From assembly GCA_018222405.1 (NCBI GenBank), contig JAAFAI010000020.1:1-64000 (forward strand): a stretch of 64,000 bases of DNA, read 5' to 3'. A program made the translations under genes and the position numbers. The DNA comes from Gammaproteobacteria bacterium (GTDB taxonomy: Bacteria; Pseudomonadota; Gammaproteobacteria; Enterobacterales; Alteromonadaceae). Under the pieces are notes generated by a model. The model was given only the letters and a program-made list of their open reading frames with translations. It was not told the origin of the DNA and made no database searches. Within the stretch, counting starts at the first letter, position 1. Each line of letters begins with the position of its first letter. Below are positions 1,916 to 22,739 of this stretch, piece by piece.

Positions 1916-2404
1916 ATGAAACAAGTAAACAAAAACGGTATTGCGAGCACACTGGGTGCAGTGGTTTTAACTTCCATGTCGTCTATGGCGATGGCCGATA
2001 CGGTTAATCCGTTCGGTGCTCAACAGTTAGAGTCTGGCTACATGCAGTTTGCGCCTGAAGGTAAGTGCGGCGAAGGTAAATGCGGCGAAAGCAAGAAAGC
2101 CAGCAAAGAAGGTAAGTGCGGCGAAGGCAAATGCGGGGAAAGCAAGAAAGCCAGCAAAGAAGGCAAGTGTGGTGAAGGTAAATGCGGCGAGAGCTTGAAA
2201 GCCCACAAAGAAGGCAAATGTGGTGAAGGTAAGTGCGGCGAGAGCATGAAAGCCCACAAAGAAGGTAAGTGTGGTGAAGGTAAATGCGGCGCCGAGAAGA
2301 AAGCCATGAAAGAAGGTAAATGTGGCGAAGGCAAATGCGGTGGTGATAAAAAAGCCAAGAAAGAAGGTAAATGTGGTGAAGGCAAGTGCGGTGGTGCCGC
2401 TTAA
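1916..2404 (+). CDS. hvfA: HvfA/bufferin-type RiPP precursor with 14 EGKCG motifs
   Basis: Precursor of a ribosomally made, post-translationally modified peptide. The 162-residue product has a Sec signal peptide (residues 1-27, predicted cut after AMA), a short spacer, and from residue 48 to 162 seven tandem 17-residue units, each beginning EGKCGEGKCG. The fourteen cysteines are the only ones in the protein and all sit in EGKCG motifs. Unit linkers are Lys/Ser/Ala-rich (ESKKASK, ESLKAHK, ESMKAHK, AEKKAMK, GDKKAKK). EGKCG-repeat precursors beside DUF692 and DUF2063 genes define the HvfA family, in which an MNIO enzyme modifies motif cysteines and the product is linked to copper binding. A good ribosome site (AGGAACAAG) precedes the ATG. 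The cysteine modification here and the copper role are inferred from the family. Confidence 0.92.
   Translation: MKQVNKNGIASTLGAVVLTSMSSMAMADTVNPFGAQQLESGYMQFAPEGKCGEGKCGESKKASKEGKCGEGKCGESKKASKEGKCGEGKCGESLKAHKEGKCGEGKCGESMKAHKEGKCGEGKCGAEKKAMKEGKCGEGKCGGDKKAKKEGKCGEGKCGGAA
2057..2401 (+). repeat. Tandem 51-bp repeat array inside hvfA
   Basis: Seven in-frame units of 51 bases, the last shortened to about 39, encode the paired EGKCG motifs. Synonymous third positions vary between units (GGT/GGC, AAA/AAG, TGC/TGT) while the encoded decapeptide is invariant, which points to selection on the peptide rather than very recent duplication. The repeats keep all three antisense frames open, producing long meaningless reverse ORFs. 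Confidence 0.95.
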
Positions 2405-2427
2405 GCCAGTCATCACCGGAGTAGTTC

Positions 2428-3267
2428 ATGGCTATTAAGTTACAGGGTGCTGGTCTGGGCCTACGCAGGGAAATGTTGGATGATGTGCTGCCTGTTCTTC
2501 CCGGAAATGTGGATTTCTGGGAGGTAGCACCTGAAAACTGGATCCCGCTCGGGGGCAAATATCGCGAAGATTTTAATCGTTGCGTACAGCAGGCCGTGTT
2601 CACTACCCATGGATTATCCTTGTCTATTGGTGGTCCGGATCCCCTGGATCACCGGTTTTTGCAAGAGCTTAAGCACTTTCTCGATCGCTATAACATCGAA
2701 TTGTACAGTGAGCATTTAAGTTATTGCTCAGCCGAAGGACACTTGTACGATCTGATGCCGATTCCGTTTACTGAAGAGGCTGTAAGCTATATTGCCCAGC
2801 GGGTTAAAGTGGTCCAGGACATTCTTGAGCGTCCTTTGGTGCTGGAGAACGTGTCTTATTATATTGCGCCTAACCAACAACTCACTGAACTCGAGTTTAT
2901 TAATGCGGTGTTGTCTGAAGCCAACTGTAAAATGTTGCTCGATGTCAATAATGTGTATGTAAATTCGATTAATCACCGGTACGATCCCTATGGTTTTATT
3001 GATGGCCTGCCGTCGGAACGCATAGTTTATGGGCATATTGCCGGCCATTATGAAGAAGCCGAAGATCTTAGGGTCGATACCCACGGCAGCGATGTCATTG
3101 AGCCGGTCTGGGACTTATTGGCGCATAGTTACCGAAAGCACCATGTGTTTCCTACTTTACTGGAACGTGATTTTAACATCCCGGGTTTAGAAGTATTGCT
3201 TGATGAGGTACAACGCATCAAACAAATCCAGCAAGCGGTTAGCGCTGAGCAGCAGGGTGTTGCTTAA
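2428..3267 (+). CDS. hvfB: DUF692 multinuclear iron oxidative enzyme (HvfB/BufB)
   Basis: Predicted multinuclear non-haem iron oxidative enzyme (MNIO, DUF692, MbnB-like TIM barrel) that modifies cysteines of the HvfA precursor in the cytoplasm before export. The 279 residues show the family's metal-ligand motifs in order: ENW (36-38), TTHG with H61, SEHLS with H96, LENV with E140, LLDVNN with D172 and N174-175, GHIAGH with H203/H207, DTHGSD with D218/H219 and LERD with E247. Length matches the family. It starts 24 bases after hvfA and its stop overlaps the hvfC start by one base, indicating translational coupling to the DUF2063 partner. Oxidation to oxazolone/thioamide or thiooxazole-type groups is family knowledge, not seen here. 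Confidence 0.93.
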   Translation: MAIKLQGAGLGLRREMLDDVLPVLPGNVDFWEVAPENWIPLGGKYREDFNRCVQQAVFTTHGLSLSIGGPDPLDHRFLQELKHFLDRYNIELYSEHLSYCSAEGHLYDLMPIPFTEEAVSYIAQRVKVVQDILERPLVLENVSYYIAPNQQLTELEFINAVLSEANCKMLLDVNNVYVNSINHRYDPYGFIDGLPSERIVYGHIAGHYEEAEDLRVDTHGSDVIEPVWDLLAHSYRKHHVFPTLLERDFNIPGLEVLLDEVQRIKQIQQAVSAEQQGVA

Positions 3268-4016
3268 TGACATTGCAGGTGCAGTTACAATCATTCGCAA
3301 ATAGCATTCGGGCGCCACAAAACTCAACAGACGAGTCGGCAGATACGCAACGCAGAATGGATATTTATCGCTCGTTGTTTTTCAACAATGTCGCGGGGTT
3401 TATCCAAAACGGGTTCCCGGTGTTACACAGCCTGTATCCTGAAGATCAGTGGCAGGCGCTGATACGGCGCTTTTTTATTGAACACCAGTGCTCATCTCCC
3501 TATTTTATCCATATCAGTAAAGAGTTCGTTGAATACCTGAGTAATGAATACCAGACGGTTAGTAGCGATCCGCCCTTTATGGCGGAGCTCGCGCATTATG
3601 AATGGCTTGAGCTGGCGTTGTCAGTCAGGGAAGCTGAGCAACCTGTAAATTATTGGCAGCAGGATGGCATACCTTCACAGCTCACCGCCTCGCCATTGAC
3701 TGAGCTGGCTGCCTATCACTACCCGGTGCATCAGATTAGCCCCGACTTCAGGCCCGAATCCGGCGATTCGATGCATTACTATCTGCTCTATCGTGACGAG
3801 CAGTATCAGGTCCAATTTCAGCATATTACGGCATTGTCTGCGTTGGCATTACAATTACTCAGCAGTGAGGTTTATAGTTTTGACTCGTTGGTAACAGCCA
3901 TTCACCAGCAAGCTCCACAGTTTTCCGTTGAAACATTACACCAGGGACTTACGCCGCTACTGACCCAGTGGTTATCCTGCGGTGCTGTAATACCCGCTGA
4001 ATCAAACGGTATATAG
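3267..4016 (+). CDS. hvfC: DUF2063 RiPP-modification partner protein (HvfC/BufC)
   Basis: Partner of the MNIO enzyme, thought to bind the precursor and present it. The 249-residue protein carries the DUF2063 N-terminal domain over roughly residues 5-95 (Q-FA-SIRAP near the start, DIYRSLFFNN, GFPVLHSLYP, FIEHQCSSPYF-H), followed by a winged-helix-like C-terminal region. The start ATG shares its A with the hvfB stop codon. No DoxX-like fourth gene (hvfD) follows, unlike some related clusters. Identification rests on the N-terminal motifs plus the context; the molecular role is known only from related systems. Confidence 0.88.
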   Translation: MTLQVQLQSFANSIRAPQNSTDESADTQRRMDIYRSLFFNNVAGFIQNGFPVLHSLYPEDQWQALIRRFFIEHQCSSPYFIHISKEFVEYLSNEYQTVSSDPPFMAELAHYEWLELALSVREAEQPVNYWQQDGIPSQLTASPLTELAAYHYPVHQISPDFRPESGDSMHYYLLYRDEQYQVQFQHITALSALALQLLSSEVYSFDSLVTAIHQQAPQFSVETLHQGLTPLLTQWLSCGAVIPAESNGI

Positions 4017-4127: not shown

Positions 4128-4253
4128 ATGGCTGGTAACGAAGATTTTAAAGAAGTGTTTAACTGGTGGTATTTTCTGGCAATTGTGGTTGCGCTAGTCG
4201 CGTTTCCATTGCTTCCTACGCTAGCAGGTATCTTTACATACCTGATCAAATAA
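4128..4253 (+). CDS. 41-residue single-pass membrane protein, unknown
   Basis: A short frame of 41 codons plus stop, beginning MAGNEDFKEVFNWWYFLAI. Residues 15-40 are almost wholly hydrophobic and would span the membrane once; the N-terminus is acidic and carries a WWYF aromatic belt. Preceded by only a weak AGCTT...TTTGAG ribosome site. It lies between hvfC and apt on the same strand. I recognise no family. It could be a small accessory of the hvf cluster or an unrelated small protein; the protein-like composition and the fitting gap between genes are the support. Confidence 0.5.
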   Translation: MAGNEDFKEVFNWWYFLAIVVALVAFPLLPTLAGIFTYLIK

Positions 4254-22583: not shown

Positions 22584-22614
22584 GAAAAACCCCCGGAAGT
22601 TTCCTTCCGGGGGT
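22584..22614 (-). terminator. his attenuator terminator
   Basis: Perfect 11-base stem ACCCCCGGAAG/CTTCCGGGGGT (22589-22599 with 22604-22614), 4-base loop, followed on the minus strand by TTTTTC. It sits between hisL and hisG and is the terminator arm of the attenuator. Confidence 0.95.
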
Positions 22615-22679
22615 CGATATGCTTTATCTGCGCCACTGGAAGGAAAACAACAACCTTCCAGCACAAACCTGAAAGGTTA
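22600..22679 (-). promoter_or_regulatory. his operon attenuator, alternative RNA pairings
   Basis: Reading the minus strand: segment A (22671-22678) can pair with B (22652-22659); B as CTGGAAGG (22654-22661) can instead pair with C, CCTTCCAG (22636-22643); and C as TTTCCTTCC (22638-22646) can pair nine bases with GGAAGGAAA (22600-22608) inside the terminator. A ribosome stalled at the His codons leaves A free, favouring A:B and then C with the terminator arm, which is antitermination. A ribosome at the hisL stop covers A, giving B:C and the terminator. Pairings are seen; the switch is inferred. Confidence 0.85.
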
Positions 22680-22739
22680 TGCTTTGTGATGGTGGTGATG
22701 AATGGCGGCGCGTTTAATCATGTATAAAATTTTGTTCAT
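22677..22739 (-). CDS. hisL: his operon leader peptide with five consecutive histidines
   Basis: A 20-codon frame reading MNKILYMIKRAAIHHHHHKA, then TAA. The run of five His codons (22686-22700) just upstream of alternative hairpins and a terminator is the hallmark of histidine attenuation. It is shorter in His run than the seven of E. coli. No strong ribosome site precedes the ATG. Confidence 0.93.
   Translation of the reverse strand: MNKILYMIKRAAIHHHHHKA

Follow-up and report, generated by a model that had tools for sequence, protein, structure and literature searches.

Promoter evidence points to an extracytoplasmic function sigma factor regulon common to hvfABC and msrPQ, with a putative role for HvfA in copper buffering

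Bacterial peptides with EGKCG motifs were described as a type by Antoine et al. (2025), and about 2,000 Buf_EGKCG/oxazolin proteins have been catalogued (PMC12452194). Three members, fontiphorin, oxazolin and gonophorin, contain 5-thiooxazoles, and the name captophorin has been proposed for them (Gadgil et al. 2026, PMC13097082). Copper binding was shown for fontiphorin and gonophorin, while copper, gold and oxidative stress are named as inducers and the physiological role of EGKCG peptides is described as needing further study (PMC13097082). In Haemophilus influenzae, RpoE2, an extracytoplasmic function (ECF) sigma factor, controls msrAB, and an operon of DoxX, DUF692 and DUF2063 genes is induced by hypochlorite in an RpoE2-dependent manner; a similar SigE regulon of Neisseria is cited in the same report (PMC7907618). 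Here we describe an hvfABC locus in a 64,000-nucleotide stretch of DNA from a gammaproteobacterium of the Alteromonadaceae (positions 1 to 64,000 of contig JAAFAI010000020.1, assembly GCA_018222405.1; hereafter the window), together with a promoter box that connects the locus with a stress sigma factor and with the repair of oxidised proteins outside the inner membrane, a link that looks new. The promoter evidence suggests that hvfABC and msrPQ belong to a common ECF stress regulon, within which HvfA would serve as a copper buffer. The locus lies on one contig (C43) of a 4.96-Mb genome and has the following features, with gene coordinates taken from the list of open reading frames (ORFs).

1801 to 1835, + strand: intrinsic-terminator-like hairpin behind the upstream chemotaxis gene, a 12-pair stem (1801–1831) followed by TTTT.
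1843 to 1870, + strand: ECF-type promoter box CGAAAT-N17-GGTCT, 5' of hvfA, with three further exact copies elsewhere in the genome.
1916 to 2404, + strand: hvfA (162 aa), precursor of a ribosomally synthesized and post-translationally modified peptide (RiPP), with 14 Cys (NCBIfam NF050137, 1.4e-52; NF050188, 106.6 bits, cut-off 95).
1916 to 1996, + strand: likely Sec signal peptide of 27 aa ending AMA/D, judged by eye from the translation.
2057 to 2392, + strand: 14 paired EGKCG motifs with a 17-residue (51-base) period, the predicted thiooxazole core.
2428 to 3267, + strand: hvfB (279 aa), a multinuclear iron enzyme of the MNIO (DUF692) family (PRK05409, 430.3 bits, cut-off 360).
3267 to 4016, + strand: hvfC (249 aa), DUF2063 partner protein, PME type 1 (NF050145, 270.5 bits, cut-off 142).

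The box upstream of hvfA recurs in relatives as [T/C]GAAAT-N17-GGTCT, and GAAAT and GGTCT, held at a fixed spacing, resemble the -35 and -10 elements of an ECF sigma factor promoter. For this comparison, the best 80 of 569 loci from named genomes were kept; ten of the 81 loci (window included) were left out, and scoring was done on the 71 with a defined hvfA start. The box was present at 10 or 11 of 11 positions in 65 of these, where mononucleotide shuffles predicted 0.9, and its spacer was 17 bases in 64 loci and 16 in one. No sigma-70-type promoter was found 5' of hvfA on the + strand. Four exact boxes occur in the genome itself, before hvfA, msrP, an ECF sigma factor gene and a chemotaxis-receptor-like gene, the last of which (L288; C21:17921–17948, - strand) has the box just 5' of it and may be either a chance match or a real target. 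At the msrP locus (L128), MsrP reached 481 bits with NF003767 and MsrQ 155.6 bits on a sequence that is cut off; the two proteins match Pfam Oxidored_molyb (PF00174) and Ferric_reduct, respectively. Within the genus, the box precedes msrP in 25 of the 30 loci that were scored among 39 genomes with MsrP (null 0.15).

The ECF sigma factor gene with the box just upstream (L140) matches PRK12517 at 276.5 bits (cut-off 197), and its end is overlapped by a gene for a DUF3379 protein. This sigma factor gene is itself preceded by the box at 10 or more of 11 positions in 28 of 30 genus loci (null 0.15), which were scored out of 40 genus genomes with DUF3379; one row of this set (L203) had been scored from a wrong start, and a 10-of-11 box is present at that gene. 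The DUF3379 protein was found in all 40 genus genomes, including those that lack hvfB, and by eye shows one stretch that looks membrane-spanning. We infer that it acts as the anti-sigma factor of the PRK12517 ECF; no mention of DUF3379 or PF11859 was found in the searched literature collection, a negative limited to that collection. We then compared the presence of the sigma factor with that of the hvfA box in 24 genomes picked from the 80 loci, which included every no-box locus except L074 (five of six) and one Alteromonas (L036). A PRK12517 sigma factor above cut-off was present in 19 and absent from five (L052, L062, L064, L073 and L077), and these five are the genomes without a box before hvfA. 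Eighteen of the 19 have that box, the remaining locus (L041) being masked upstream of hvfB and unscored, so that presence of the sigma factor and presence of the box agree in 23 of 23 scorable genomes. In Arsukibacterium the two elements are also physically linked: in five of five loci the pair of ECF and DUF3379 genes is found downstream of hvfABC at a distance of no more than about 3 kb, and in A. tuosuense (L069) the order on one strand is hvfABC-doxX-ECF-DUF3379. When 5-kb flanks of the 81 loci were scanned, no locus besides those of Arsukibacterium showed ECF/DUF3379.

Further candidate targets come from ten box sites besides that of hvfA that were fetched from one relative (G024), and are thus one genome's list. 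They include the ECF gene (L183), msrP (L188), a TonB receptor gene (L186), a metallo-hydrolase gene (L189), a response regulator gene (L182) and a gene (L191) whose product matches cupredoxin with a score under the Pfam cut-off. One exact box (L184) lies 5' of moaA at a distance of 153 bases, moaA serving the synthesis of the molybdenum cofactor on which MsrP depends, and another (L185) stands 44 bases before the gene of a ChrR-type cupin protein that scored below the cut-off of the ChrR model. Two sites (L187 and L190) were rejected: they fall inside long reading frames on the same strand and look like chance. A similar TonB-receptor-like ORF was seen by eye in a second genome (G025). Provisionally, we regard the TonB receptor, the metallo-hydrolase, moaA, the ChrR-type cupin and the cupredoxin-like protein as extra targets in the genus. 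Across 40 genus genomes (own included), the pattern occurred 223 times and its reversed-pattern control 164 times.

Turning to the proteins, the original prediction had described a secreted Cys-repeat precursor, a DUF692/MNIO enzyme with its metal ligands and a DUF2063 partner, in that order. Coordinates and family models bear out the three genes and their order, as they do the one-base overlap of hvfB and hvfC; the spacing between hvfA and hvfB is 23 bases and not the 24 given there. HvfA, HvfB and HvfC each pass the NCBIfam model of their own name. All 14 Cys of HvfA lie inside EGKCG, two motifs per 17-residue unit, and the six full 51-base units share 71–96% DNA identity and are therefore diverged tandem copies. 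HvfB matches Pfam MbnB_TglH_ChrH (1.7e-101) and the MNIO structure PDB 3bww (1.4e-77), with which its motifs DVNNVYVN (172), VDTHG (216) and LERDFN (245) align. Three residues are essential in H. influenzae HvfB, N175, D242 and H244 (PMC13419390); they most likely correspond to the DVNN and VDTHG motifs conserved here, a correspondence drawn from motifs rather than from a direct alignment. Likewise, Arg15, Arg16, Asp249 and Phe250, the specificity and catalytic residues of FonB from the fontiphorin pathway (PMC13097082), find counterparts in R13, R14, D248 and F249 when matched by motif, not by alignment. HvfC matches Pfam DUF2063 (1.5e-24) and NGO1945_C (5.1e-21) as well as PDB 3dee (4.5e-10), a gonococcal partner protein from a thiooxazole-producing cluster (PMC13097082). 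Between signal peptide and repeats, HvfA carries the segment NPFGxQxLESGYMQ (residues 31–44, about 2006–2047 of the window), which is conserved in relatives: the pattern NPF...L.SGY precedes the repeats in 62 of 69 precursors, and the seven misses (including L028) show the segment by eye. We regard the segment as a candidate contact or recognition site for HvfC.

These assignments also bear on the class of the pathway, which had been named a bufferin cluster. We ruled out bufferin 1, since HvfA gave no Pfam match at E up to 1, and hence no DUF2282, and HvfB missed the BufB equivalog cut-off (257.9 vs 310). Methanobactin was ruled out on the MbnB equivalog score (31.2 vs a cut-off of 325), and the ApyH and ChrH models were matched below their cut-offs only. 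The bufferin 2 profile (Buf_6/12Cys) has six or twelve conserved Cys, and HvfA has 14 Cys. Judging from precursor and models, the locus is of the HvfA/oxazolin (captophorin) type and, strictly speaking, no bufferin; the HvfABC part of the earlier name stands. It is a further member of an EGKCG type already described, the published chemistry coming from relatives, and in view of the catalogue and the three characterized relatives cited above it no longer qualifies as little-described. Of the proposal that the locus makes a modified, exported copper-binding peptide, family models and relatives support the RiPP pathway, export is suggested by the look of the N-terminus, and copper binding would follow from the behaviour of the characterized captophorins.

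Among the 80 relatives kept, an hvfC match was found in 79, an ORF with KCG repeats in 75 and an apt match in 65. Chance is ruled out for the gene set because of the first two counts. The exception for hvfC (L005) ends at a contig edge; of the five loci without a KCG ORF, three (L025, L035 and L053) begin only at hvfB or close to it, one (L041) is masked upstream and one (L057) has EGSCG instead. The closest named relative is Alteromonas alba, with 97% HvfB identity, in a comparison from which the records nearest to the own genome may be excluded. In the 69 precursors without masked letters, Cys numbers range from 6 to 18, and counts of xxxCG words gave EGKCG 752, EMKCG 18, DGKCG 8 and EGSCG 7. 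The precursor of Neiella marina (L057:4403–4855) has EGSCG/EASCG repeats and no KCG, next to an ordinary hvfB and with the promoter box present, and is thus a natural test of the substrate tolerance of HvfB. Within the genus, 30 of 36 genomes (own included) have an hvfB match; the misses include a genome that is 87% complete, and among the matches that of G026 (C1:1238704–1239506) is in two pieces in different frames and looks broken.

Neither neighbouring gene could be added to the operon. The upstream chemotaxis gene was matched in only 8 of 80 loci, a count to be read with the fact that many loci end before that gene could appear, and the terminator-like hairpin stands 3' of it; in the scanned stretch, 6 such terminator-like sites were found vs 2.5 expected. 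A 41-aa hydrophobic ORF (4128–4253, + strand) between hvfC and apt is matched in 34 of 80 relatives and reaches no Pfam family above cut-off. It was rejected as hvf-specific because two of six apt loci examined with a crude pattern have a similar ORF beside apt, namely those of G026 and of G004, a genome without an hvfB match. Elsewhere in the window, a histidine operon leader RNA (22585–22701, - strand; RF00514, 71.5 bits) is the only Rfam match at gathering scores.

Taken together, we propose the following model. HvfC would dock the precursor HvfA onto the iron enzyme HvfB, which would convert Lys-Cys dyads oxidatively into 5-thiooxazoles, either ahead of Sec export or in the course of it. 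Once in the periplasm, the peptide, carrying as many as 14 thiooxazole thiolates, would bind Cu(I). The unlinked PRK12517 ECF would transcribe hvfABC and, when released from its putative anti-sigma factor DUF3379, would also drive its own operon and msrPQ, so that copper sequestration would be switched on jointly with periplasmic methionine-sulfoxide repair. Such a pairing is best read as a response in which the envelope meets copper and oxidant damage jointly, these being the putative inducing signals. We consider this explanation as a whole, an EGKCG captophorin under a PRK12517 ECF/DUF3379 regulon shared with msrPQ, to be probable.

Several observations weigh against this explanation. The own genome contains the exact box 4 times and the reversed-pattern control 5 times; the count is not above that of the control and alone proves nothing, and it is the placement of the boxes that carries the signal. 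Of the 30 msrP loci in the genus, three score 9 and two score 7; one of the latter (G007/L260) has no box within 300 bases, and the other (L279) is cut at a contig edge, yet an exact box is present. Beyond the genus, ECF genes have a weaker box, with 5 of 12 loci at 10 or more of 11 and the rest at 8 or 9, yet every one of the 12 keeps the spacing of 17; these are the loci scored out of 22 fetched (the start pattern failed in ten) and come without a shuffle control. The Fisher value for the co-occurrence of sigma factor and hvfA box (p 3e-5; 18+5) ignores phylogeny and refers to hand-picked genomes. Finally, no DoxX gene (hvfD) adjoins hvfABC, the three DoxX matches of the genome lying on contigs C46, C27 and C33 and not on C43; in the described systems DoxX is frequent beside EGKCG operons and not essential, and fonABC, the fontiphorin operon, lacks it.

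Three other explanations have to be weighed. If hvfABC were a buffer dedicated to copper, a metal sensor would control it and the box in common with msrPQ would be incidental. That 5-thiooxazole peptides bind copper and that copper excess is a frequent inducer of related pathways would fit such a view, but oxidative stress and gold are named as inducers as well (PMC13097082), and the conserved box looks ECF-like, is also found before the ECF gene and msrP, and co-occurs with the sigma factor gene; we therefore hold a dedicated copper buffer to be unlikely. HvfA might also act mainly as an oxidant sink whose thiooxazole thiols are sacrificed to hypohalous acids, in the manner proposed for the Met-rich peptide MrpX/BcrX beside MsrPQ. 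The box in common with msrPQ is consistent with this idea, but to our knowledge MsrPQ would not regenerate oxidised cysteine products. A Met-rich peptide under ECF control contributes, with an MsrPQ system, to HOCl resistance in another bacterium (PMC8315932) and thiooxazole thiols react readily with iodoacetamide (PMC13097082); captophorins, on the other hand, were shown to bind copper (PMC13097082), and a role mainly as a sink appears unlikely to us.

The remaining explanation concerns the identity of the regulator, in that a different ECF or another regulator might read the box and the link to PRK12517 might be coincidence. The genome has 17 sigma-family genes above the TIGR02937 cut-off, the support for PRK12517 is correlational throughout, and another sigma locus (L130) has two 10-of-11 matches. 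Yet among the 23 sigma-type loci scanned, the exact box is found only at L140, just before the sigma gene, and both the boxes before the orthologous ECF genes of the genus and the position of the pair near hvfABC in Arsukibacterium speak for PRK12517, which makes a different reader unlikely. A broader suggestion combines elements of these views: DUF3379 proteins would form a class of anti-sigma factors not described so far, their ECF partner would respond to oxidant stress in the periplasm of Alteromonadales, and HvfA would there be a thiooxazole thiol sink for hypohalous acids, for example in bromide-rich, algal settings, in addition to a copper binder, working with MsrPQ. We offer it as speculation with a small but real chance of being correct. 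For the proposed regulon of hvfABC and msrPQ, the question of copper or oxidants would become testable in a marine genus, given a sharp box, a sigma factor that can be named and a candidate for its anti-sigma factor.

How does this locus compare with the described systems? Sinorhizobium RpoE7 resembles our proposal in that an ECF raises the expression of DUF692 and DUF2063 genes, but it is a different sigma factor with a different promoter of the TGTAAC type (PMC6180224). Bufferin 1 (DUF2282 BufABC) likewise combines an MNIO, a DUF2063 partner and a Cys-rich precursor with a signal peptide, but its precursor belongs to another family, and sigma/NrsF genes are found in Buf1 clusters (PMC12452194). 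The genome described here has such a DUF2282 cluster of its own (L002; C33:124697–128506), with a BufA1-type precursor, an MNIO, a DUF2063 partner and thioredoxin and YHS-domain neighbours; DoxX is matched some 4 kb from it, and a scan of this cluster for the box gave no match of 9 or higher out of 11. Between HvfA and the precursor of Buf_EGKCG/oxazolin type 1 we saw no difference. In the available part of the paper on that type, oxidored_molybd (PF00174) and ferric-reductase genes are reported in small numbers of EGKCG clusters, and sigma factors are discussed for Buf1 clusters only (PMC12452194). Fontiphorin of Fontimonas thermophila and gonophorin are captophorins, and fonABC is, like hvfABC here, a minimal ABC locus with an EGKCG core whose RR and DF specificity residues in FonB are matched by motif; FonA has seven motifs whereas HvfA has 14, and the peptide of the present locus is a predicted product.

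The closest parallel is HvfABC(D)/oxazolin of H. influenzae, which shares the EGKCG repeats, the HvfB-family MNIO and the HvfC partner, although it has six modified Cys (PMC13419390) vs 14 motifs here, and no doxX stands beside hvfABC here. There, an ECF has both the operon and methionine-sulfoxide reductase genes under its control (PMC7907618), which parallels the regulon predicted here. This arrangement is reported for Haemophilus and cited for Neisseria with an anti-sigma factor of the ZAS type, a 67-aa ZAS-motif protein in the case of RpoE2 (PMC7907618), in contrast to the predicted DUF3379 partner of the PRK12517 ECF. The predicted anti-sigma family differs from that of Haemophilus, yet a captophorin and methionine-sulfoxide repair come together once more in the predicted regulon, and if this pairing arose under different regulators, it is probably functional.

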